64,000 nucleotides of DNA from Dimargaris cristalligena. Lineage: Eukaryota > Kickxellomycota > Dimargaritomycetes > Dimargaritales > Dimargaritaceae. The notes below the pieces were generated by a model. That model searched no databases. It was not told where the DNA came from and saw nothing but the letters and a program-made list of their open reading frames with translations. The stretch is taken from contig JANBQC010000079.1 of assembly GCA_027576995.1 (NCBI GenBank), positions 1 to 64,000 on the forward strand. Direction: 5' to 3'. Numbering within the stretch: position 1 is the stretch's first letter; each line of letters begins with the position of its first letter. This document shows, piece by piece, positions 38,670-58,114 of the stretch. A program made the translations under genes and the position numbers.

Positions 38670-41600
38670 ATGAAGCCGAATTCCATCCAGAAATCCCCAG
38701 GACTTGAGTTCCCCGGGGGAGGTCGCCCTACCCCCTTAATGGAAGGCAGTGGTATTTTGTCTCGCCTTACGTTTCACTGGATTCAGCCTATTATTCGCCG
38801 GGGTGGTCAACAAACGATCACCGACGAGAATCTCAACGAACTTAGCCCCGAGGACCGCTGTGCCGTTGTGGCAGGTCGACTACAGACGCTGTGGGAGGCC
38901 GAGGTTAGGGGTTGTCCCGATAACCCCCGTTTATGGCGCGTACTCTTACTCCTGAACCGATTCCATTTAATTCAAACAGCCATAATCGGGATGGTGGAGT
39001 CGATTTCGAAAATTTCCCAGGCCGTATTTTTAGGGTAAGTCATCCGCTTTAGATCTTTGTATACTTTGAACTTCGTAGCAGGTATCCTCAAGTATACGTT
39101 AGGCCATAGTGTCTCAAACCCAAGTACGAATACAAGGTTCTAATGTATGTTGTTCCCTCATTTGCAACTTTTGGCTATATATAGCTATATCATTGGCTTT
39201 TTCCAAGATCCGACCATGCCCATGTATAAGGTAAGTGTGGTCTATTATTGGTATCCTTAGCACGTGTCCGTTTTCGGCAAGGCAACCCCGCCTCCAAATT
39301 ATAATCCTCCGAGCAATTTGATTAAACTTACGTTCTTTACTCTTGTATAAATCACCACTACATTACCTCGTCCGTGCCATTAGGGTTATCTCTACGCCAT
39401 GGGCCTTTCGTTCGCCGTTCTCTTGCAAGCCTTTATGCACCACATTTTTTATTTCGGTTTGGCGCGTACTATTCTGAATACGCGAGTTGGATTATCAGGT
39501 GAGTGATAGTAGCAGCTAACATGCCTTATTTTCCCTCCCACCCCCAAAACTATCGAATTGGCCTGTCAATCCCCTTGACCACTGCTGCATGGACTAACTT
39601 TACAAACCAATGCATATCTACATGTGTATAATAATACTACCTTTGTACAGCCCTGATTTTTAGCAAGAGTTTGAGGCTACCCGCCGCTTCATCATTAGCC
39701 ACCGGAACCGTAGTTAACTTGATTTCAAACGACCTTATGCCTTTCGAAGTCCTGTCATCTTTCATACATTCATTCTGGCTGGGTCCCTTTGAAATTGCAC
39801 TGGCCTTTTATTTCCTATGGAGCTCACTACGGTTCAGCCTGTTTGTCGGTTTGGGCATCTTTGCCCTTATGATTCCGATGCAGCTGTGGTTCGCCCACAA
39901 CTTCTCCCGCATCCGGGAATTCGTGGTCAAGGCCCGCGACCAGCGCGTACGACTGCTTAGCGATACCTTCAGTGGAATGAGTCTCGTCAAGCTATCGGCT
40001 TGGGAGCGTATTTTGGGGGAGCGTATCCTTAGTTTACGCCGACTTGAACTCGGTTTTCTGAAGCGGGCCGCGAGATTTAAGTCGGTGAACGAGGGCATTT
40101 TCTTTTCGTCAGGTAGTTTAGTGTGTGCGGCTACTTTCATTACCCTACATTTTATTAGCACCTCCTTTCATTCTAGCCAAGTGTTCACCACGATGACGCT
40201 GTTTAATCATATCCGCTTGACGATGGCCTGCTTCGTGCCCAAGTTTCTGGAGTCCCTCGCTGAGGCCAAGGTATCATCCAGGCGTATCGTAGATTTCCTC
40301 ATGCTGTCCGAGTTACACGCTCTAGAATCCCCGTCGAAACCCACCCCCTCTCCCCTTCCTAATTCGGACTGTGATTCGGATGAAAAGTCTGTGGATATTG
40401 ATGTCTCTGCGCCGTTGGAAAAACTTGCCACCAATGGTAACGATAAGGGAAGATCGCGACTGCAATCCATTTCCTTCCAACATGCCTATTTTTCCTGGGG
40501 ACAATCGATGGAAACGACCTCAACGAAGGCTTTGCCGGCTACTACCGCCCATTCAGACTCTTCGAAGCCGGCTAAAGGGGTCGCTCAATTGGTGGATAGG
40601 ATTGCAGAACCCCTGGTCAATACGACTGGGAGTCAGTCATCTTCAAATGGTCCCAACGCAACTTTAAGTCTCACTGTACCCCACCTGCATAGCAATTCAG
40701 TGCTTAAAGATCTGACCCTAACACTAGGGTCCGATGAACTGTGTGCTGTAATCGGACCGGTTGGCAGGTAAGTTATTTTCCGGAGATGAAGGGCTGGTAG
40801 CCTATGTTTTAATGACTTTATTCTTATAATCAATTTGAAATGCCCCAACCACCTCGGCGTCCCTGCTTTGGCGTATGATACTAACCTGCAATCATGCCTC
40901 GATATACCCATCACTAAATTCGCCCAATCTTATCACCGTTCCCTCTTAGCGGCAAATCGTCATTCTGCATGTCCTTAATGGGCGAGTTGGCGGTCCTATC
41001 GGGCCAACTGCATTTCAAATACGGTGGTACTCCCAAGCAAAAGGATGAGAAAACCGCCCCTTTAACTTCCTCTCGCCAACCCCGTATTAGCTACTCGGCT
41101 CAGGTTCCCTGGATTATGGCGGGCTCCGTTCGGGAAAATATTATTTTCTACTCTGGGTATGAACCCATTCGGTACCAGTGGGTGATTGAATGCTGTGCCT
41201 TGGGTCGCGACCTGGCCCTGATGGAGGAGGGGGACGCTACACTGGTCGGAGAAAAAGGAACTAACCTCAGTGGTGGCCAACGGGCCCGCATTTCCCTCGC
41301 CCGGGCGGTCTACCATGACGCAGACCTCTACGTTCTAGACGATCCCTTATCCGCGGTCGATTCCCAAGTAGGTCGCCACCTATTCGAGCGGGCCATTCGC
41401 GGATTACTGCGTGATAAACCCGTCGTACTGGTAACCCACCAACTGCAGTTCATCAGTCAGTGTGATTCGGTGCTTATTCTGGATGAGGGGCGTGTGTTTA
41501 CCCACGGCGCGGTGGATACGGTGACGGCCCTTCTGCTGAACCATTTGGACCAGTATGGTGTCCTCGAGACCCCACCCGCCAGTTCGGTTTCGGTCACCCC

Positions 41601-43752
41601 TCCGATCGGCACCCTTGCCCCCAACCCCGCGGCACTACCCCTCCCGGGTGTACTCGACCGAATCGACAGTTCTACCTCTTTGCGTGGATTCCTGCGCCAT
41701 TACTGCGATTTTACGGTTGGTCCGACATCACCTACATCAGCGGAGATGCCCACCCAGGGAGTTGATTCGAAGACAATGTGGGCTACTCCGGGTGAGCACA
41801 CGTTAGTGGTGCCAAAGATTCCAAACCCCGAGAAGGCCATGCCTTCGGTTGATACCCCTAGTTCCCTAACCAAAAAGGCCAGTCCCGCTGAAAAGAACTC
41901 TACTGCCGACCCTCAGTCCCCCGATGTTGCTCGCCTTGGGGACCGCGAGCAGTCCGAAGAGGGAGTCACCCCACTCTCCACGTATTATCAATTTATGCGG
42001 TTCGGAGCCCCGGTTTTGGCTCTCATTGCCTTGGTGGTGCTCATGCTTTTGGGCCAGGTCTCTCTCCTGTTTACGGACTACTACTTGTCCCGCTGGTCCA
42101 TGATGCCGCCCGAGGAACAAAGCAAGCACTCCCATGTCACTCTTTACGCAGGCCTAGCAATCCTGACCCTGACCATTGCCATTTCACGGTCCATGTCATT
42201 TCTGTTGCTCACCCTTCGGGCCAGTGACCGAGCCTTCCGCCATATGTTGGATGCTGTGCTATCTAGTCCCATGCATTTCTTCAATGTCAACCCGCAGGGA
42301 CGTATCCTTAACCGGTTTACCAAGGACCAGTCGAGTGTTGATGAACAGCTGCCACTTAACTTTTACGATGCCACCCAAGCTTGCTTGATGGTGGTGGGCG
42401 CGATTGTGGTCATTTGTTTGGCCAACCCCTGGATTATCATTTCTGTACCCGTCATTTTGTTTGGATTCGGTCTACTTCGCCGATCCTATATGGCGGCTAA
42501 TCGGGTGATTAAGCGCATCGAAAGTGCATCCCGGAGCCCTGTCTATTCCATCCTGTCCGAAACCCTAGACGGCCTGGGCACCATTCGTACCTTCCGGACC
42601 GGTCCGAGCTTTATGGGGCGGTTCGCCGAAGCCTTGGACCAGAACGCCCGGGCCTTCTTCATTTTCATGGGCTGCAGCCGGTGGCTGGGGTTCCGATTGG
42701 ATTTCATGTCGGCCTTATTTGTGACCCTCTCATCCATGGTGACGGTGGCCAGTCGGGCAAACAGTGACCCAGGCATGGTCGGTCTGGGTCTGTGCTATAT
42801 TATCCAGCTGTTGGGTTTATTGCAGTGGATGGTGCGCCAAACAACGGAGGTGGAGATCCTGTTTGTGGCGGTGGAACGTATGATGGCTTATGTGCGCCTA
42901 CCATCTGAGCCCACCCCGGCTAACCCGCTGGACCCGCCACCCCAGTGGCCCCAGGAAGGTTGCATCGAATTCCGCGGCATGAACCTCACCTACCCCGGGA
43001 CCTCCCGGGCCGTGCTTCAGAACGTGAATCTCCAAACTCGCCAGGGGGAGAAAATTGGGGTGGTGGGCCGAACAGGCGCGGGTAAATCATCCCTTCTCAC
43101 TGCCCTGTTCCGATTGACTGAAGCCCACCCAGCGGGTAGTATTATCATTGACGGAGTGGATATCAGCCGACTCCCTCTGTCTGAATTACGCCAATGCCTG
43201 ACTATTATTCCCCAGGAGGCCTTTTTATTCCACGGCACGTTGCGGTTCAACTTGGATCCCTTTGACCAGTATACGGATGCCCAACTGTGGGACGCCCTTG
43301 AGGCCTGTGAACTCAAAACCAGTATTGAGAAATTACCGGAACGTCTCGAGAGCCCCGTCAGCGAAAACGGCAAGAACTTTTCAGTGGGTGAACGTCAACT
43401 CTTTTCGTTAAGTCGAGCGGTACTAAAGAATGCCCGAGTCATTATCATGGACGAGGCCACGGCCAATGTGGACCTACACACCGACAAACTCATCCAGAAA
43501 ACTATTCAAACACAATTTGCCCATGCCACTGTGTTGACCATCGCCCATCGGTTGCACACGGTGATTGGTGAATCTGACCGGATTCTAGTACTGGACCGTG
43601 GTGAGGTGAAGGAATTCGATGAACCATGGGTGCTCCTGCAGAAATCCGGGGGCTGGCTCTCTAATTTAGTAGCCCGGACGGGGCCTGAGACGGAACTAGA
43701 GCTTCGTGCAGCTGCGTCGGCTAAATGGCAGCGAGACCTTCCTAGACCTTAG
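38670..43752 (+). CDS. ABCC-type ABC transporter (MRP-like)
   Basis: Full-length ATP-driven exporter, probably for organic anions, conjugates or drugs, at the plasma or vacuolar membrane. Five exons: 38670-39034, 39185-39230, 39384-39498, 39651-40767 and 40950-43752, giving about 1481 residues. It begins with the L0-like region (LTFHWIQPIIRRGGQQTIT), with no extra TMD0 domain, so it is MRP4/5-like rather than Ycf1-like in length. NBD1 has Walker A VGSGKSS (split by the fourth intron), signature LSGGQ and Walker B LYVLDDP. NBD2 has GRTGAGKSS, a degenerate signature FSVGE, and IIMDEATANVD with H-loop AHRLHT. TMD2 lies between, about residues 650-950 (DYYLSRWS, FNVNPQGRILNRFTKDQ). The small exons 2 and 3 encode TMD1 helices. 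Substrate unknown. Confidence 0.93.
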
Positions 43753-47191: not shown

Positions 47192-49321
47192 TTAACGAGT
47201 GGCATCTCGTTCGCCTATATCTGAATCCGGGTTTAAGCGGAGTGTGGGGTCGACTTTGGCAGCCTGACTAAGACTACTGGTTGGTTGTGGCCTACTATTA
47301 TCCGGCGGGAATGTTGGTTTGCCCACAGTGGAGTGGGGGGACCGTTGAGGACTAGTTCCCTGGGGTGAATACCCTGTATTAATCGTAGTTGGAGATATCG
47401 ACTGGCCCATCACTTTGTAATTTAAGGGTGAGACCGGACTTATGGAGCGACGGCGCTGTTGAAGTCGGGTATTTGACGCTGGTGGGCCCACACCAGTCTC
47501 GGCAGACGTGCCGCTGGCAGTGTCTATGGGTAGTGGCTGCTGGTCTCCTAGATCAGCGGGATGCTGATACTCAACGGCACCATCCCCGGTTGAACGGGCA
47601 TTACCGTTAGTGTGGGAGTAGTGGTTGGGTTTACGCGGGGAACGTGGTGGTTTTCGGGACCAGGGGGATTTGAGCAGAGCAACATCATTCGGTGTAGGGG
47701 AAAGGAAATCGTGCGAGGTCGAAGGTGTGCTATTCATCTGTCCCAGACTCGTTTCCCCCGCGGTACCATTAGGGAAAGATCGGTGTGAGCAAAATTTAGA
47801 CCGGCACCGGGACCGTAAGAAATAGGGGGAATTGCCAGACTCTTTACTAGCGGATGTATGTGAAGGAGGTGCCGGAGAACAGTGACATGAAATTAAAGAA
47901 GAAGTGGAGACAGTTGATTCCATAGATAGTCGTCGGTTCAAAGTGCCACTGGGTGACGGGTCCAAGAGGGCCGAGCAATGTTTTTCTTCTTTTCGCGCAT
48001 CGGGAGTTGGGGCCGGCCAGGCTGTCCCCATAATTATGGATTCGACGATAGATGAACTTTCGCAAGAGTCAATGGTTTCTTGGGTTACAAAGGTCGCCGA
48101 CTGGAGAAAGGCAGTCGCAGCCACTTGGTCACCGTGGTTGGTAGTAATAGTTTCGGGGGCGGTTAGAGAGGACTCGTTGGGTAGAAGCCTCAAAGACCAG
48201 GGCCCTTCAAGTTGTTCGGATAACTCAGATGACTCGGAATCGTATGAGTCACTAGCTCCCTGGGTCAAAACTTCACGTTTGGTCGTCGACCAGGTATCAA
48301 AGATTGGTGAGTTGGGGACATCTGTCGCTGAAAGAGGGCTGTCGGATTCTTCAGATTCGGTGATTACATTGAATGCGACACTGTGTGTGGAGGCTGCGGA
48401 GGCACTGCTAGAGTATGAAGCCACATCCTCCTCATCGGAGTCGCTAAGATCAATGGTACTTTCGACATCCTGGTTTGCGGTATCATTTTGCTTAATGATA
48501 TATGAGGTTAGGCCATCCACCTCATCGGGCTCTACCCCATCGGAGTAGGAATCCAAATCGATAGCAGCCGCCTCCATATCGTCGGACTCGGCCTCCGACT
48601 CCACTTCATCATCTTCACTTTGACGGCTCAGACTGGTCTGATCGCTGTTTTCGTCCAAAATAACCAATTTCGGGGTTTTCGATAGGCTTAGCCGGCGGGA
48701 CGGGGTATCTGAATGAGTGGGTGAGGGGGAGAGGTCCGGGCGTTTAAGCGGTTTAGTCGGAGTGGAAGGAGTAGGGCTAAGTATCCGATGGGACGAATTT
48801 AGGGTTGGGGGCGTGGTGGTGCGGGGGAGGTCTATCGGCTGGATGGGAGTAGGTGGCGAGGGCCGAGCCAGGAGGGCCTCATTGACCCGCTCGCGAAGGC
48901 CCTTGACCCAATGGCTGAAATCGTCCTTCGGGTACCCTGCAGGCTGCCTGGTGGCACTTCCGGACGAGGCATTCGCACCTATGGGCTGACGGGAGGGGGT
49001 TGCAGGAGAAAGTGACCCGACAGCCCGATTGCTCCCGAAGGTTGGCGGCGGGGGCCTATCACCCACGCGACTATTCGATTGCGAAAAGGTCGAAGCGGGT
49101 AATAGGCGGGAAGTGGCTGTAGTAGTGCGAGGGGAAAGACCTAGGGAGAACCGGGGTATCGGAGGGCTCCCCCAGGGTTGGGGCCGCGATCGTTTGCTGG
49201 CGGGGGCGGCGGAGTAAGGGATAGCCCGTTTCCCTGGTGTCCGGTGACTAGGCAGGCGAAGGAGAGAAGGCGAATCGCTGGTGATGGAAACGATTGGGGG
49301 ACTCGATTCGTCGCTGTCCAT
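47192..49321 (-). CDS. Disordered Ser-rich protein with SIM-like motifs
   Basis: Single-exon 709-residue protein with no recognised globular domain. Composition is dominated by Ser, Pro, Thr and acidic clusters, and many SP/TP sites (TPGKR, SPRK, SPWSRK) look like CDK/MAPK targets. Several short hydrophobic motifs sit next to acids and serines, as in SUMO-interacting motifs: PIVSITSDS (about 9-17), KLVILDENSD (218-227), AIDLDSYSD (253-261) and TIDLSDSDEED (289-299). A small helical segment, FSHWVKGLRERVNEALLARP, lies near residues 135-154. A Cys/His-containing patch (ISCHCSPAPPSH...) follows around 470. It is probably a nuclear scaffold or regulator, but the function is not assigned. The long uninterrupted frame and its continuous biased composition make the gene itself credible. 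Confidence 0.75.
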   Translation of the reverse strand: MDSDESSPPIVSITSDSPSLLRLPSHRTPGKRAIPYSAAPASKRSRPQPWGSPPIPRFSLGLSPRTTTATSRLLPASTFSQSNSRVGDRPPPPTFGSNRAVGSLSPATPSRQPIGANASSGSATRQPAGYPKDDFSHWVKGLRERVNEALLARPSPPTPIQPIDLPRTTTPPTLNSSHRILSPTPSTPTKPLKRPDLSPSPTHSDTPSRRLSLSKTPKLVILDENSDQTSLSRQSEDDEVESEAESDDMEAAAIDLDSYSDGVEPDEVDGLTSYIIKQNDTANQDVESTIDLSDSDEEDVASYSSSASAASTHSVAFNVITESEESDSPLSATDVPNSPIFDTWSTTKREVLTQGASDSYDSESSELSEQLEGPWSLRLLPNESSLTAPETITTNHGDQVAATAFLQSATFVTQETIDSCESSSIVESIIMGTAWPAPTPDARKEEKHCSALLDPSPSGTLNRRLSMESTVSTSSLISCHCSPAPPSHTSASKESGNSPYFLRSRCRSKFCSHRSFPNGTAGETSLGQMNSTPSTSHDFLSPTPNDVALLKSPWSRKPPRSPRKPNHYSHTNGNARSTGDGAVEYQHPADLGDQQPLPIDTASGTSAETGVGPPASNTRLQQRRRSISPVSPLNYKVMGQSISPTTINTGYSPQGTSPQRSPHSTVGKPTFPPDNSRPQPTSSLSQAAKVDPTLRLNPDSDIGERDATR

Positions 49322-50418
49322 AGTTGGTTAAGCGCTGAGGAATTGGATATTGAATATACGGCAGAGAGAGAAGAATTGGGCTAGAAAGGAGAAATGAAAA
49401 AGAGCATGGGAATGTGGAAGGGGGGAGGGTGAAACGCTTGGCTAGAATAGAACAAGACCAGTTTAGACAAGTAGAACCCTTTGGAAATAATGCGACGCGT
49501 AGTGCATATAATGGGTACGTGGAAGCCTTTCCCTGGGCGCGGCAATAGGGCGCATCTGGACCGGGAAGATACCCGGGAAAAAAGAGGCAAGGAGCGATGG
49601 CATGGGGGACGGTTCCCATAGTAAAAGGCACGACTTATGCACTACTGTGGCCCAGGCCGCAGTTTCTTCAGCGTAAAGCAGAAAAGGGGGAAGGCTGCAT
49701 AGCACTCGACATGCCGCTGAATTATCGAGGATGACTCACTTTGGACTCATCACCCGGTGCGGGGTACTAATAAGCCTTATCACGTACTTCGCACAGCGGG
49801 ACTCGACTCCTTAACTGAACCTTAACGGCAAAGTTACCGAACGGGCTATAGTCATTTATCCAGGTGCGCCCCTGGTTCGAACTAGTGTGCTGTTGGGGGA
49901 GTTGGGTGGACTTCGTGGCATCAGATAGATAAACCACGCTACCTGGCGAGTCCGAAGAGGAGGGCAGCTTCCGATGGGATTTTGCACTTGATGTCCACCG
50001 GTTATTCCCAAGTAGGAACGATACATGGTGATCAAGTAGGTATTACCATCTCGAATCATATAGGATACAGCCATCACAAATAACCATATGGCAGAAGTTC
50101 ATCCAGGCTGTATAACGAATAATCCATTTGATGAGGTAAATATTACTGGTCAAAAGTTATTCTCCCACATATTATCCCATTCACATATTGTGTAAAATCT
50201 TATACAGTTGGGTTGAAGTTCACCCATATGCTGTTGTGGGCCATTGTTATTCGTTAATCCCACCCACTCACTCAAGGAAAGACTCTGAAGAACTTTAGAG
50301 GTTTTGCAAAACCACCTCCACCAGTGCACTAAAATTAAATCCCAGGTTCTAGCCTACCCTTTCTTTGCTAGCGCCCTTCAGTTTCTCTGGTGGATTCCCT
50401 TCCCGATCACGTTGAGCC
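49322..50418. promoter_or_regulatory. Divergent intergenic region, SIM-rich / Myb genes
   Basis: 1.1 kb between two divergent start codons. It contains a short hairpin CGTGG...CCACG near 49916-49940 and a TTCGAAC sequence at about 49876, which I tested and rejected as a tRNA. No other feature seen. Confidence 0.4.
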
Positions 50419-51837
50419 ATGAGCAGAATACCTCTAAGTTACCCTCGATTCACCGTCCCCATTGGTCGGCTCGCCTTCTTCCAGTCGAGTCGCTGCTGGT
50501 CGTTGACCCGAGCCAGTCACATCCAGACCCACACCCATTCCGGTCAAAACCGCGAACCCCCGGTTTCCTCTTCAGTGAGTCCCAAAACTCCCGCCAAACC
50601 ACCGACACCTGGTTCCCATACAACCCTCGCCCCTCCCGTCGTTTTCCCCCCTCGACTGAATTCGGAAACCATCCAAATATACCTCCTCGTTTTCAAACTG
50701 TTGAACAAGGGCTTGAAGTTAAACCGGATCACCCCTAAGCTCCTTAAACTCCTTTACCCCACTCTGGCCGAGACCCGGATCTGGTACCACCATACCCCTT
50801 TCTTGGCTAGCTTTCGGGAAGGCCGTAACCGACTCTCTTGGTTCCTAAACCTCGATCCCGAACTGACCACTGAGAATCTTGAGCAATTCGTGCAATGGGA
50901 ACATGCTTACCAAGACCGGATTATCCATAAGAAGAAGTGGTCACCCGAGGAGGACGCCCGTCTGCTCGACGCCCATGCGCAGTGGCGTTCCGCCGGCTGG
51001 AAGACAGTCGCTTCAGTATTCGGGGAAGGTCGAAGCATGTTTTCCTGTCAGTCCCGGTACTTCTATTTAACCCGGGAACGCAAAACCACCCAACCACCGA
51101 GTGCTGCATTTATTCGGCTGCTAACCATTCGGCTCAGAAAATACAAGCAGGACTGGTCCCAGGTCCACCAACACTATCCAGACTGGTCCATGGCCGAACT
51201 TCAATCGCTCCGGCTACCCGAGTTGCCCAAGCGTCAGAGCCACGGTAAGATATGGTCCGCATCGGAAATTGCCCAGTTACGCACTACCGTGGCCCAGCTC
51301 GGTCCCCGCAAATGGCATAAAATCGCCGCCCTGATGGACCACAAGTCTGCGACGCAATGCTCCAATAAATGGATCGAACTGAGTGGCGCGTTCGATTTGT
51401 CCCCTTGCTCCCCTGACGACATGGCCCATATTCTATTTTATCTGGCCGTCTATTATCCCCACATTATTCGGCCCCTTTGTCCTAGACTTGTCGAGGGTAT
51501 TCCCACCAAGTACCAGGAACATGCTCTGTCGCCAACTAACTGTATCTACTGGGGATTTATTGGCAGTCATTTTTCAACACCCCGGGCAACCCCCCACTAT
51601 GTACAGGCCTGGGTGATCATAAGGGTAATTATGAAACTTCTGAACCAGTTAAACCCAGAGCTTGAGAAGCGGTTGGACCACGTCCAGTCAGTCCATGGCG
51701 ACAAGAAGTCCTTTAGACAAGAATTAATTAAGCACCGCATCACCGGATCTTTGGCTACATTTATGCGTGGCCGGGAACTTGAGCGTCGTTTTTGGGAGTT
51801 GGTTAAAAGCCCTCCGCCCCTATCTAATACCTCTTGA
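50419..51837 (+). CDS. Two-repeat Myb/SANT domain protein
   Basis: 472-residue single-exon DNA-binding protein. The first Myb repeat (about 172-220) is KKKWSPEEDARLLDAHAQW...GWKTVASVF...CQSRYFYL. The second (about 275-322) is GKIWSASEIAQLRTTVAQLG...KWHKIAALMDHKSATQCSNKW. The repeats are separated by about 55 residues (QDWSQVHQHYPDWSMAEL), which may hold a weak middle repeat. The C-terminal about 145 residues are helical (HILFYLAVYYPHIIRPLCP) and unrecognised. The N-terminal 45 residues (MSRIPLSYPRFTVPIGRLAF...) contain Arg, Ser and hydrophobics and almost no acids, resembling a mitochondrial presequence. Plausible roles are transcription or telomere/mtDNA binding; none is proven. Confidence 0.82.
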   Translation: MSRIPLSYPRFTVPIGRLAFFQSSRCWSLTRASHIQTHTHSGQNREPPVSSSVSPKTPAKPPTPGSHTTLAPPVVFPPRLNSETIQIYLLVFKLLNKGLKLNRITPKLLKLLYPTLAETRIWYHHTPFLASFREGRNRLSWFLNLDPELTTENLEQFVQWEHAYQDRIIHKKKWSPEEDARLLDAHAQWRSAGWKTVASVFGEGRSMFSCQSRYFYLTRERKTTQPPSAAFIRLLTIRLRKYKQDWSQVHQHYPDWSMAELQSLRLPELPKRQSHGKIWSASEIAQLRTTVAQLGPRKWHKIAALMDHKSATQCSNKWIELSGAFDLSPCSPDDMAHILFYLAVYYPHIIRPLCPRLVEGIPTKYQEHALSPTNCIYWGFIGSHFSTPRATPHYVQAWVIIRVIMKLLNQLNPELEKRLDHVQSVHGDKKSFRQELIKHRITGSLATFMRGRELERRFWELVKSPPPLSNTS

Positions 51838-52126: not shown

Positions 52127-53000
52127 CTACATAGTGGGCCGAGCCGACGTTACCGTGACTTCATTGACGTCTAAAGTATTAAAAACCGAAGGGGTCAGAG
52201 GAGTGGCCACGCCTGATGCGCGTTGAAGGGCACGCTGGAGCAGCTGGGCACAGTGGCGGGCTTCCAAGGCATCCTAGATAGAACCCACGGGTTAATCCGA
52301 AGGCAATGGGGATGGGTAGAGGATATCGGACAGTTGTGGGGTTGGTGGATTAGATTAAGCCATGGGACACATAGGATAAATAGGGTCGACTTTGCTTGGG
52401 AAGGCGATGTAATCAATGGCCGAAAGAAAAACCAAGGTTATTAGCGAATTACCTGAGTATTGACGTAAAATATAGGCAATTCCCCGAATTCATCTAAAGT
52501 CACTTCCAAATCGACCAGTTCGAACGCGTGCTGGGATTTCCGATCAACTGGTAGTATAAGTACATGGGATATAATGGTTTTATATGAGTTAAGCGCGGAT
52601 GGTATAGGTAGACAGCTAAGAATAGTCTGGCTAAAACCGGGTAGCCTTCGAAAGGGGAGTCGAACTTACAGAAAGTAGCGAGGATGGAGAGCCGGCCCAA
52701 GAAGTATTCGGGGGGCACTAGAAGCAACTGGCGTTTGAGGTCTCCCAAAGCCGCCAAGTCGGTGAGATTGACCAGCAGGACTACGAAGTCAACGTGTAGG
52801 GGCTGGTTGGTGGGCAGGGGGGTGGGCAAGTCGGAGCAGGTATGGACGACGAGGTCGTGCTTGGGTGAGCGGGGGTCAATCAGGTGCTGGGCCAGGGCTC
52901 GTTTGCCGCTGCCCTGTTTACCCACCAGCAGTAGGTGTAGTGGTAGGTTCGAGCCGGCGGCTTCGCTGGGATTAAAGCCGAAGCCAGCCTCTTGTGACAT
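52127..53000 (-). CDS. CENPM: CENP-M-like kinetochore protein (GTPase fold)
   Basis: Predicted inner-kinetochore (CCAN, CENP-H/I/K/M group) subunit with a small-GTPase fold. Three exons on the minus strand: 53000-52670, 52547-52453 and 52273-52127, giving 190 residues (human CENP-M has 180). The order matches CENP-M: beta-1 LPLHLLLVGKQGSGK, a segment ending SDLPTPLPTNQPLHVDFVV, then LLVNLTDLAALGDL, EYFLGRLSILATF, a Cys-poor strand LPIFYVN and a C-terminal helix HCAQLLQRALQRASGV. A near-Walker A is visible, Gly27-x4-Gly32-Lys33, but the Ser/Thr that should bind Mg is Arg34, and there is no NKxD. It therefore looks like a pseudo-GTPase, as reported for human CENP-M. Alternative: a divergent small GTPase. 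The three-exon model keeps the frame throughout. Confidence 0.7.
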
Positions 53001-53629: not shown

Positions 53630-56600
53630 ATGACCCCCTCTTCTTTTGCCCTTGCGGCCGGATCGCCGGCCGCCGCTGCCACGACGGCCCTTTCACAGAA
53701 TACCCCCGCTCCAGCTAGTCAACCAACTACCATAAATTCACGTACCCTCGAACTCAACAAGAAACTCGTAAATAAATTAGTCGACCTTAACTGGTCCGAC
53801 GAGGCTATCCTACGCTCCAATTCCAGCCCTACTTTGGCGGAGGCCCTGCGCCAAGTCCGCGCTGCCCGCGCCTCCACTATCACGGCCCCGGCGTTCCCAC
53901 AGCCGCCTTCCGCCCACAGCCGCTCGGGGTTGGCCTCACTTAACCCCGAGGAGGTTGAAGATGGTGAATTGTCGTCCTCGACTCCGGAGCCGCTTGATTT
54001 TCCCACTGCCCGGGCCACTTCAGTGATCGCGATTCTCTCGTCTCCAAACTCAACCCCCGCTATCGAAGGCGACCCAGAGCCAAATCGAGAACCTTCGTTG
54101 GCGCTGGAAGACGAACCTAACCCATTCGTGTTATCCCCCCCGCCCCAGGTGACCCAAATATCCGATGATTCTGAGGAAGAGGAGGGCATTTTGACCGTCT
54201 ATAATGGATCCACCCCCGAACTGCAGCCGACAGGTAATGGTGATGGTGACGTTCCCGCCACTAGCCAACACGCCTCTGACAGTGAAATGGACTTGTCGTC
54301 CGATGACAATGCGGTCGACCACCACGATTGGTCCTATCCGGCTACCTTGGCCTACGGCCCATTCCACGGCTCGTTCGCTGGCCATTCAGGAGGCTGGTGG
54401 CCGGCGATGTCCCAGCCCGGCTACCCAATGAACAACCCTCTCCGTTTAAGCTATCCCTACAACCATAATGGTCAAATATACCCTTCCTCGGGTTACCCGG
54501 TAAATGGTGCCCCCGGGGCATATCACCCGTGGACCTCCAACCACCAACCCGACTCTGAGTCCGAGGAATCCACCTCGGCCACAACGACCTACTCCGAACG
54601 TGGCCCCCAATTTAGTCAGGCGTTTGGGTTATTACAACATCAACTTGGCGATGGTATGAGTCCCGGGGCCTCTCGCGGCTCGGTAAGGCCCCCCGCAGGC
54701 TCACAGTTCACCGATCCTCACGAACCTTATACGAGCTCGTTCAGCCGCAAGGCGTGGTCCAGTTTTAAGTCCGACCTAGTCAATCAGCAGTTTTCCTCAC
54801 GGCCACCCTCCTTTGTCGCTCTTCAAGCCAGCTTGGGCAATATCGAGTTAAGCGATTCGGAATCCGACATGGAAACCGATGGTCCCCAGCGTTTGGAAAC
54901 CAGTTTGAATCGCTCGTGCATGGACCAGTACCTAGAGGAGCGACAAACACGGTCCAGTGACCATCGTTACGGCGCCCCCCAGCGGAGAGGCTTCCCTGAC
55001 TCAACGGAGTTGAGTAGGACAGCCAGCCAAAATGGATTCGGGGCTCAGTCAAATACCAAGACGCTCCTGCAGCAGCAGGAGGAAAAAATCGCCCAAATGA
55101 AGCGGCTCATCGAGCAAATGGAGAAAAATAAGCGCGACACGGCGACCAGTAAGCCATCGGGTGGCTCAGCACTCGAAACACCCGCCAGTGCCCCCCAGCC
55201 GGAAGGCAGTGATAGGCGTCCCGCCTTGGAAAGAATTACCCCAACCAGCTCCGTCGCATCCGCAACGATAAATCCGCCTGGGTCGCATTCAATTTTGGAG
55301 GCATCGCCTGATTCTGATCCAACTTGTATCGACATCCTGGTTCCCAAGCCGCAGGCCCTTAAACAACCCAACCTCGACTCCGAATCATCCGAGAGTTCCG
55401 AGAATTCCGAGGATTGCGAGGATTCCAACGCGTTACCTCCACCACTCTCCAGCCCCCCCGCCACAGACCTATATCCCCCCGAGCCCGCTACGGACTGGCA
55501 GGCGATTCAATCCGAAATTGACCGTCTCGAGTCCCAGACTCAGGAGGAGGAAGCCCGTGCCCACGAACATTTTAGCCAATATCAGCAGCAACTGAAAACA
55601 TCCTTGAACCTCAAGGCAATGTTACAGCGGATCCAGGATCAAATGGCTACGAGTCGTCGGGCTTATAATAGGACCAGCCATGTCGCCACCAAGCTCCGGA
55701 GTCAAATACAGGAAAAACGTGCCTTGTTTCTTGGCCAAGATGAATCGGTCATACCTCCTAGCCTTTGTCAGCCAGACCATTCGACTGTAGTACCCGTAGT
55801 GGCAACGCCAGCGCCTTCTATTCCCATCAAGTCTACGGTTGCTGCCGATACCGTCAAACAATTGAAGCGCAAATTGGATAGCATTCAACAGGAGCATAAT
55901 GCCCTCGTGTTAAAGCAAACGGCGATCCTACCCCAAGCGAAGAAACGGCCCCCCACTCCCCCGACCGCGAGGCTGCCGACGCATGATTCACTGACCCGCT
56001 TCATGGATCGGATCATGACTTGGGCTAAAGATCACCCAATCACCCGTTATCAGCCGGCCCCCGAAATTGTTTCAACGCCAATGCCTTCGGAATGTACCGT
56101 CATTCCGAGTCCGGAAGACAAGGAAGAGCTCCCTGCTCTGGATGCCAAACTAGCGACCCGTCTCCGTTCCTTCCGTGTATCCTGTTTCCAAAGTGTTCTA
56201 GACCGATTTTTCCGCCCCGATGACATCAAATCGCTGGCCTACGCTCCGAAAATAGACCCTAACGTCCCCTTATGTCTATACGAGACCTTGGGAGGGGAGT
56301 GTCATGATACGAGCTGTCAGTCTACTCATTTTCGGGACCTAGAAATCACCGTCGACGAATTTCTCTGTACCCTACTTGATTATTACCCCGATTCTGCTGA
56401 GTCAGAGAAGGCGGGTTACTGCGCTTCCCTTATGCACACCCTCTTTAAGATCACTGATCAGGGTCAGACCATTTCCCCTGCCGAGTTGTTTGCCTGTATA
56501 CTGAATCATCGGTCCAACTATATCATGGGTCGAGACCTAGATCGACGAGCCCATACCTCCGAGTCTCTGCCGGTGGATATTCATGTACCTGAGCAATCGA

Positions 56601-58114
56601 CTGCCCCGCCTACTCGCCTGCATCTGCCCCTGCCTCAATTAGGTACGACACGGGCCGACCTGGATGGCTATTTTACCAAGTTGGTCCCGGTCCAGGTGGC
56701 TTGGATTGATGGCCTTGCCCAGAAGGCCCCTCACGCACGCAACAGGACCTCGTCAAATGTAGCTGTCGAACTAAAAACTACGTCCGGCCAGATTGATAGC
56801 ACTTCGACTGAGCCCGGTTTGTTGGCTAATAGTCCACTCCCCGCGGATATCGAAAATGCCGGGAACAATGTCACATCGGGCGCCACCCTGGCCACCTTTT
56901 TAAATATGAACTCATCAGCACTCCCCGCAGAGGTCTCGGATAAGGTATTGGACTACCTGGGTCAAGGCGCCTGGGATTTGAAATGTACTCTTTACTCTTT
57001 AACTAATTCTAATGCGATTCTGGACCGCTTATGTTTAACCGTCTTTAGCATACCCCATAAGTCCGCGAGTAAAGCCCTTAAATTAGTGCCATTGGTGCGA
57101 TTGGCCATGTCCAATTTCCCCCAGCGGGCCGATATGCCATGGCTTATTAATATGGCTACTATCAGTAGTGCCCTCATCTCGGGCGCCAGCGTGACCCCTC
57201 TTTGGATGGCTTTACTCGACTTGCTGATATACATTTTTGAACCAAATGACGGCGATTTAGCAAGCCCAGGCAACGCCGAAATCCTGGCTGTATTTCAATA
57301 TCTTATGAATGTCCATGGTACCGACCCGAACGTTTGGTGGCGGTTTTTCTCGTGGCAATTGAACCACGAGCGGCGGGTAAAGCATCTCCAAACGATGGTT
57401 ATCATATTTTTGGAGCACACCGGTAAACCATTTGATACTAAGCGGGTCGCCTTCGGAGCCAACGTGACCAACGCCTTAGTGGTATTACTTCAACTGTACC
57501 TCGACAAGTACCGCGGCACCCCTACGGTGGAGTTAGTTCTCGATTGGTTTTATTATCTACTGACCTCTCCCCTTGACGGTGCCTTCGTTACGGTTCTTTT
57601 CACCGAACCCAAAGGCATGGCGAATCGCCTCGGCGATGAATTTACTTGGCGCAAGCCTGACTACTTGGGGAAAAGTATTCTATTTTCCCGACTCTGTCCG
57701 GAACAATACGCTTATTTGTGCCTAAGTTACCTCCACGCCCTCGCCAATGGTTCATTAGGGCCAGATCAATTCGTTGGCACTGGCTTGTTTTCATTTCTTC
57801 CCCGTGACCACCGCGCTTTCGTGATTAACTGGCAGGCCGCCACAGATCCAGACCATCGAAATTCTGAGTCGAGGCACACCATAACCCATGCCGCAAATGT
57901 TACGCACCAACTATGTCTTATGTTTGTACCGATGCCTTCTGAGCGTGAGCTATATCTTACCATGATTAATAATTTTATTGCCGCCCATAGGGCCGGTGGT
58001 TCTACCCTTGCCACAATCTATGATGGCGTAAAACTTTTGGGCAGTCTTGAACACCAACTCCCGTCTCCCGAAATGGCAGACATTTTATCCCGGCTCTCGG
58101 TCAAGCGAGACTAG
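53630..58114 (+). CDS. ZFC3H1/Red1-like zinc-finger RNA-surveillance protein
   Basis: 1494-residue single-exon protein. The key feature is one zf-C3H1-type finger at about 882-900, CLYETLGGECHDTSCQSTH (C-x8-C-x4-C-x3-H), characteristic of human ZFC3H1 and fission-yeast Red1, scaffolds that link nuclear RNAs to the exosome through Mtr4-type helicases. Before it lie about 500 disordered residues with acidic-Ser clusters (ISDDSEEEEG, SDSESDMETDG, SSESSENSEDCEDS). Coiled coils follow (QQQEEKIAQMKRLIEQMEK; QSEIDRLESQTQEEEARAHE). After the finger comes a long helical repeat region reminiscent of HAT/TPR repeats (DPNVWWRFFSWQLNHERRVK; YAYLCLSYLHALANG). I start at the second in-frame ATG (53630), because the upstream 42 residues are hydrophobic and atypical. 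Orthology to Red1 is likely by architecture. Confidence 0.75.
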   Translation: MTPSSFALAAGSPAAAATTALSQNTPAPASQPTTINSRTLELNKKLVNKLVDLNWSDEAILRSNSSPTLAEALRQVRAARASTITAPAFPQPPSAHSRSGLASLNPEEVEDGELSSSTPEPLDFPTARATSVIAILSSPNSTPAIEGDPEPNREPSLALEDEPNPFVLSPPPQVTQISDDSEEEEGILTVYNGSTPELQPTGNGDGDVPATSQHASDSEMDLSSDDNAVDHHDWSYPATLAYGPFHGSFAGHSGGWWPAMSQPGYPMNNPLRLSYPYNHNGQIYPSSGYPVNGAPGAYHPWTSNHQPDSESEESTSATTTYSERGPQFSQAFGLLQHQLGDGMSPGASRGSVRPPAGSQFTDPHEPYTSSFSRKAWSSFKSDLVNQQFSSRPPSFVALQASLGNIELSDSESDMETDGPQRLETSLNRSCMDQYLEERQTRSSDHRYGAPQRRGFPDSTELSRTASQNGFGAQSNTKTLLQQQEEKIAQMKRLIEQMEKNKRDTATSKPSGGSALETPASAPQPEGSDRRPALERITPTSSVASATINPPGSHSILEASPDSDPTCIDILVPKPQALKQPNLDSESSESSENSEDCEDSNALPPPLSSPPATDLYPPEPATDWQAIQSEIDRLESQTQEEEARAHEHFSQYQQQLKTSLNLKAMLQRIQDQMATSRRAYNRTSHVATKLRSQIQEKRALFLGQDESVIPPSLCQPDHSTVVPVVATPAPSIPIKSTVAADTVKQLKRKLDSIQQEHNALVLKQTAILPQAKKRPPTPPTARLPTHDSLTRFMDRIMTWAKDHPITRYQPAPEIVSTPMPSECTVIPSPEDKEELPALDAKLATRLRSFRVSCFQSVLDRFFRPDDIKSLAYAPKIDPNVPLCLYETLGGECHDTSCQSTHFRDLEITVDEFLCTLLDYYPDSAESEKAGYCASLMHTLFKITDQGQTISPAELFACILNHRSNYIMGRDLDRRAHTSESLPVDIHVPEQSTAPPTRLHLPLPQLGTTRADLDGYFTKLVPVQVAWIDGLAQKAPHARNRTSSNVAVELKTTSGQIDSTSTEPGLLANSPLPADIENAGNNVTSGATLATFLNMNSSALPAEVSDKVLDYLGQGAWDLKCTLYSLTNSNAILDRLCLTVFSIPHKSASKALKLVPLVRLAMSNFPQRADMPWLINMATISSALISGASVTPLWMALLDLLIYIFEPNDGDLASPGNAEILAVFQYLMNVHGTDPNVWWRFFSWQLNHERRVKHLQTMVIIFLEHTGKPFDTKRVAFGANVTNALVVLLQLYLDKYRGTPTVELVLDWFYYLLTSPLDGAFVTVLFTEPKGMANRLGDEFTWRKPDYLGKSILFSRLCPEQYAYLCLSYLHALANGSLGPDQFVGTGLFSFLPRDHRAFVINWQAATDPDHRNSESRHTITHAANVTHQLCLMFVPMPSERELYLTMINNFIAAHRAGGSTLATIYDGVKLLGSLEHQLPSPEMADILSRLSVKRD

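Follow-up and report, generated by a model that had tools for sequence, protein, structure and literature searches.

How a switching GTPase turned into a fixed part of the kinetochore is known in outline only, and a locus of the fungus Dimargaris cristalligena (Kickxellomycotina, Dimargaritales) raises the question of whether a step of that route can still be read in a present-day protein. The locus occupies positions 52127 to 53000 of the 64,000 nucleotides of contig JANBQC010000079.1 that we analysed (hereafter the window), and its three exons on the minus strand encode 190 residues. A preliminary description, made from the DNA letters, had called the product CENP-M-like and had pointed to a near-intact phosphate-binding loop (P-loop) in it. 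To our knowledge, the well-studied yeasts have no CENP-M. Our results indicate that the Dimargaris protein is very probably both a CENP-M and a structural, non-switching subunit, and that it carries the segment GKQGSGKR at the P-loop position. A profile search of the D. cristalligena assembly found a single CENP-M locus.

The assignment to CENP-M is consistent across profile, sequence and structure databases. The Pfam CENP-M model (PF11111) scored 54.4 bits (cut-off 25, expectation value, E, 1.2e-14), aligning residues 23-176 with positions 18-170 of its 174, and still reached 47.6 bits when loop residues 27-34 were masked. The other Pfam models listed, all below their cut-offs, were AAA_16 (21 bits), two Sigma54 models (Sigma54_activ_2 at 20.2 bits), AAA_5 and nSTAND3, and every one of them left the list upon masking. 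NCBIfam returned two weak matches far below cut-off, both to DNA polymerase III delta' models and confined to residues 17-47. Among the 177,635 distinct sequences of the PDB, the sole two matches at E up to 10 were human CENP-M (phmmer, E 1.5e-8, residues 22-165), and the exon-1 frame alone recovered the identical two at about 3e-6. The blocks LLVNL and FLG...LATF, whose order had been proposed to parallel the human protein, indeed aligned with human FVVNL and FLG...LATG in both the pair alignment and phmmer.

A Rab/Arf small GTPase of the ordinary kind, misread as CENP-M, would share this fold, and Rab chains come next in the structure lists; the closest solved structure is CENP-M, by sequence and by predicted model alike. 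No Ras, Arf or Roc family appeared in the Pfam list at E up to 10, a range in which few matches above about 0.1 survive the HMMER filters. Comparison by hhalign with 31 mammalian CENP-M sequences gave a probability of 94 (E 1.1e-7), and of 95 (E 4.2e-8) with the loop masked, whereas three Ras/Rab-type proteins that the genome itself encodes gave 18 (E 1.3e-3), falling to 0.3 (E 0.18) with the loop masked. These three were taken from 12 Ras loci retrieved out of 45 matches in the genome; two of the remaining loci had stops in the stretch, one aligned poorly, and there were six others. Since the match to CENP-M survives masking and that to Ras/Rab vanishes, it is the loop, in these comparisons, that makes the sequence resemble those of working GTPases. 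The search for a better match to an ordinary small GTPase family thus found none, CENP-M being the stronger match by Pfam, hhalign and PDB, and we give the misreading almost no credence.

The gene is arranged as follows, with the codons of the loop counted from the initiator ATG.

52670..53000, minus strand: exon 1, with the ATG at 53000, encoding the N-terminus, strand 1, the P-loop-like segment and the sequence up to LATF
52899..52922, minus strand: codons for residues 27-34, GKQGSGKR, at the P-loop position, with Arg34 in place of Ser/Thr
52548..52669, minus strand: intron 1, 122 bases, GTAAGT...CAG
52453..52547, minus strand: exon 2
52274..52452, minus strand: intron 2, 179 bases, GTAATT...TAG
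52127..52273, minus strand: exon 3, encoding the C-terminal helix and the tail with L176, and ending in the stop TAG at 52127-52129

The spliced coding sequence has 573 bases including the stop, and its product is 100% identical over 190 amino acids to H4R33_001843 of D. cristalligena, a public record on two contigs, in agreement with the three-exon structure proposed previously. The exon model matches the existing annotation, because the spliced protein equals H4R33_001843 letter for letter; UniRef names this record Centromere protein M, so that both the exon model and the name predate the present analysis.

Residues 27-34 read GKQGSGKR, as had been described, and lie where small GTPases have GxxxxGK[S/T]. 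Both glycines and the lysine of this signature are kept, that is, three of its four positions, and the Ser/Thr is replaced by Arg34; human CENP-M has GTEDALLQ at the same place, aligned without a gap by phmmer and MAFFT. We also compared the segment with mammalian CENP-M in an alignment of 32 of the 121 other proteins among the matches listed in our protein searches. The column of Gly27 holds Gly in 22 of the 32, Ser in nine and a gap in one, and in none of the 32 is position 32 a Gly, position 33 a Lys or position 34 a Ser/Thr.

The retained glycines and lysine raise the possibility that nucleotide is still bound, as in a class ii pseudo-GTPase, with Lys33 and the backbone holding the phosphate and Arg34 substituting for Mg2+. 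The AAA_16 and Sigma54_activ_2 matches, lost on masking, point in the same direction. The P-loop Ser/Thr, which normally holds Mg2+, is Arg34 here, and by eye we read no G2-G5 motif in the sequence, DxxG, NKxD and SAK included, in agreement with the earlier statement that NKxD is lacking. Strand 5 ends in ILATFFDR, and TCSD occupies the G3 place if human Leu52 is equated with Ras Gln61, as in PMC4080450. In the AlphaFold2 model, the loop lies between a strand (21-27) and a helix (33-41), and there is no room for switch I, because only eight residues separate this helix from the next strand, which begins at 50. The modelled lack of switch I would fit the deletion described for human CENP-M in PMC4080450, where the human protein is also reported to bind neither N-methylanthraniloyl (MANT)-GTP nor MANT-ATP. 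Because Arg replaces Ser/Thr and no G2-G5 motif was read, the Dimargaris protein is predicted, like human CENP-M, to be unlikely to bind nucleotide, and we consider the nucleotide-binding alternative improbable.

The residues that contact CENP-I offer a view of the structural role. According to PMC4080450, the human double mutant L94A-L163E loses CENP-I binding, and Leu52 is invariant. The MAFFT pair alignment places human L52 at L58, L94 at L101 and L163 at L176, and the first two lie also within the phmmer alignment. Mammalian CENP-M has Leu in 32/32 sequences at the columns of both L101 and L58 and in 29/32 at that of L176, the other three having Met. By alignment, human L52 and L94 are kept in the Dimargaris protein, and L163 is probably kept as L176.

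The profile searches of the genome for kinetochore proteins covered eight families, CENP-C, -H, -I, -K, -L, -M, -N and -T. The check on the partners of the CENP-H/I/K/M unit, suggested in the preliminary description, recovered two of them above cut-off, CENP-I at 178.5 bits and CENP-K at 39.5 bits; CENP-H was recovered only as sub-cut-off pieces, described below. The 771-residue CENP-I frame matched human CENP-I in the PDB at E 8.3e-41 over residues 18-429. CENP-L scored 58 bits and CENP-T 54.8 bits, the CENP-T profile also giving six weaker matches in other places. By these profile scores CENP-I, -K, -L and -T are encoded in the genome, as CENP-H probably is. Four of the weaker matches to CENP-T_C are on one contig (30.5, 30.5, 26.6 and 26.1 bits, two of them above cut-off) and may represent core histone genes, not CENP-T.

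Several observations count against a CENP-M working as part of this complex. The confidence of the AlphaFold2 model is modest (mean predicted local distance difference test, pLDDT, 54.1; predicted template modelling score, pTM, 0.53), the alignment behind it was built of CENP-M sequences and is hence biased to the CENP-M fold, and folding the protein by itself was uninformative (pLDDT 34.9). The alignments of the loop by phmmer and MAFFT are ungapped and that by hhalign has a gap of four residues, so the register is likely, not certain. L176 is placed by MAFFT, and the Pfam match ends on it; the equivalence with L163 is only probable because L176 lies past the phmmer alignment, which like that of hhalign ends at 164-165. 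The CENP-T profile also matched three of 14 controls below cut-off, and these matches, together with the six weaker ones in the genome itself, indicate that it reaches histone-like folds. CENP-H is present only as two neighbouring exon pieces on one contig (25.6 and 25.3 bits against a cut-off of 29.9; E 1.3e-4 and 2.3e-4), one of them with an internal stop. CENP-C reached 23 bits against a cut-off of 29 in a search that also matched 8/14 prokaryote control genomes, and the CENP-N profile found no match in the genome; neither result is proof of absence.

Taking these data together, we propose that Dimargaris CENP-M has the small-GTPase fold and would serve as a non-switching structural subunit, using a surface that includes L101 and probably L176 to bind CENP-I in its C-terminal half. 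We infer that this binding would complete the CENP-H/I/K/M unit of the inner kinetochore. GKQGSGKR would then be the leftover of an ancestral P-loop, partly kept after nucleotide binding had been lost, an origin that we consider rather probable. The segment could instead have been regained, or have arisen by chance, after the CENP-M of this lineage had lost it, in which case it would be uninformative on the origin of the pseudo-GTPase; this would contest only the relic origin. The loop is known here from a single fungal CENP-M sequence, the second Gly and the Lys are missing in 32/32 of the mammals compared, and GxxxxGK arose somewhere in 1173 of 100,000 shuffles of the Dimargaris protein (~1.2%). 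Against this, the probability of Gly at +5 with Lys at +6 from one given Gly is 0.0014 by the protein's own composition, and in the model the segment follows strand 1 and precedes helix 1, the expected P-loop place. Basilico et al. (PMC4080450) moreover derive the family from P-loop GTPases. We regard a regained loop as a possibility to be taken seriously, if a doubtful one.

A divergent CENP-M that has been solved (PDB 9okb, chain J) bears on the same choice: it has no such loop in its readable N-terminal part, which counts in favour of a regained loop. A profile of the Dimargaris protein and the 32 mammals reached this chain only at E 0.035.

The comparison with human CENP-M (PDB 4p0t/4wau/7qoo; PF11111) summarises the likeness. 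The two proteins share the family score, the order of strands and helices, the equivalents of L52 and L94 (L163 probably) and the lack of G2-G5 motifs by eye, and the Dimargaris genome has the partners CENP-I, -K and probably -H. They differ in sequence (31% identity in the pair alignment), in the loop, and in small insertions and deletions mostly at the N-terminus and in the C-terminal half. Human CENP-M is listed as a class i pseudo-GTPase in Table 2 of PMC5593906, and other members of that class in the same table, p190RhoGAP pG1/pG2 and fungal dynein LIC, have likewise a GTPase fold judged incapable of nucleotide binding, an incapacity that is only predicted for the Dimargaris protein; they belong to other families and have other partners.

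Both the P-loop idea and a fungal CENP-M had already been published. Mucor circinelloides, also an early-diverging fungus, has CENP-M (PMC7729030, Table 1; PMC9252888, section 21) together with CENP-H, -I, -K, -L and -T, and differs in lacking CENP-A and -C according to these two papers, a likeness that concerns the presence of genes and not the sequence of the loop. The Discussion of PMC9252888, by contrast, states that fungi have lost CENP-M. Basilico et al. (2014; PMC4080450) reported that the canonical P-loop is kept in distant CENP-M relatives, and drew from it the inference that the preliminary description also makes. Their four relatives, from an iterated profile search, include the GTP-binding protein SAS1 and a Ras-related protein, so some of them may be true GTPases. 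The Dimargaris case resembles theirs in that a member of the CENP-M family keeps the P-loop, here in part; in our tests this protein matched CENP-M and not Ras. Such a clear CENP-M from a fungus, with part of a P-loop, may be cleaner evidence for the route from GTPase to kinetochore than the distant relatives cited, and it provides a concrete protein for a nucleotide-binding test.

In our own protein searches, that at E up to 10 (433 candidates) returned the Dimargaris CENP-M alone, and in two wider ones (best 120 of 510 and best 120 of 468) all named rows except Dimargaris were mammals, with 10 unnamed rows in each. A literature search, with most subscription journals outside its scope, gave, among the matches listed, none that deals with CENP-M of Dimargaris or of any zoopagomycete. 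One of the mammalian records, a hamster CENP-M-like protein of 332 residues, additionally carries PF09256, which we take to be the BAFF-receptor domain, and is perhaps a read-through of neighbouring genes.

The preliminary description had gone further and suggested a possible evolutionary intermediate. This is supported in part: a CENP-M with a partial P-loop was indeed found; intermediate status is not established, because one sequence cannot tell an ancestral loop that was kept from one that was regained. On the boldest form of the proposal, CENP-M was already a CENP-I-binding kinetochore subunit in the ancestor shared by fungi and animals, without switch I, G3 and NKxD and with the P-loop nearly whole, and Dimargaris keeps that state with a single change of Ser/Thr to Arg. 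We hold this only tentatively and think it rather unlikely; if it were true, the switch regions would have been lost first and the P-loop last, by separate losses in different lineages. The locus is best regarded as an already annotated member of a known family, with one informative sequence trait, a useful data point and not a surprise.

The neighbourhood of the gene was also inspected. Tail to tail with it lies an open frame of 472 residues with two Myb-like DNA-binding stretches (window 50419-51834, plus strand; 74.4 bits). On its other side, a divergent open frame of 1494 residues (53630-58111, plus strand) matches zf-C3H1, a putative zinc finger, at 27.3 bits against a cut-off of 20.9; the start codons of this frame and of the CENP-M gene are about 630 bases apart, and the two may share a promoter region. 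Further away, a 711-residue open frame on the minus strand (47195-49327) had no Pfam match with an E of 0.01 or lower, and an open frame on the plus strand (40918-43749) encodes the membrane and ATPase domains of an ATP-binding cassette (ABC) transporter.
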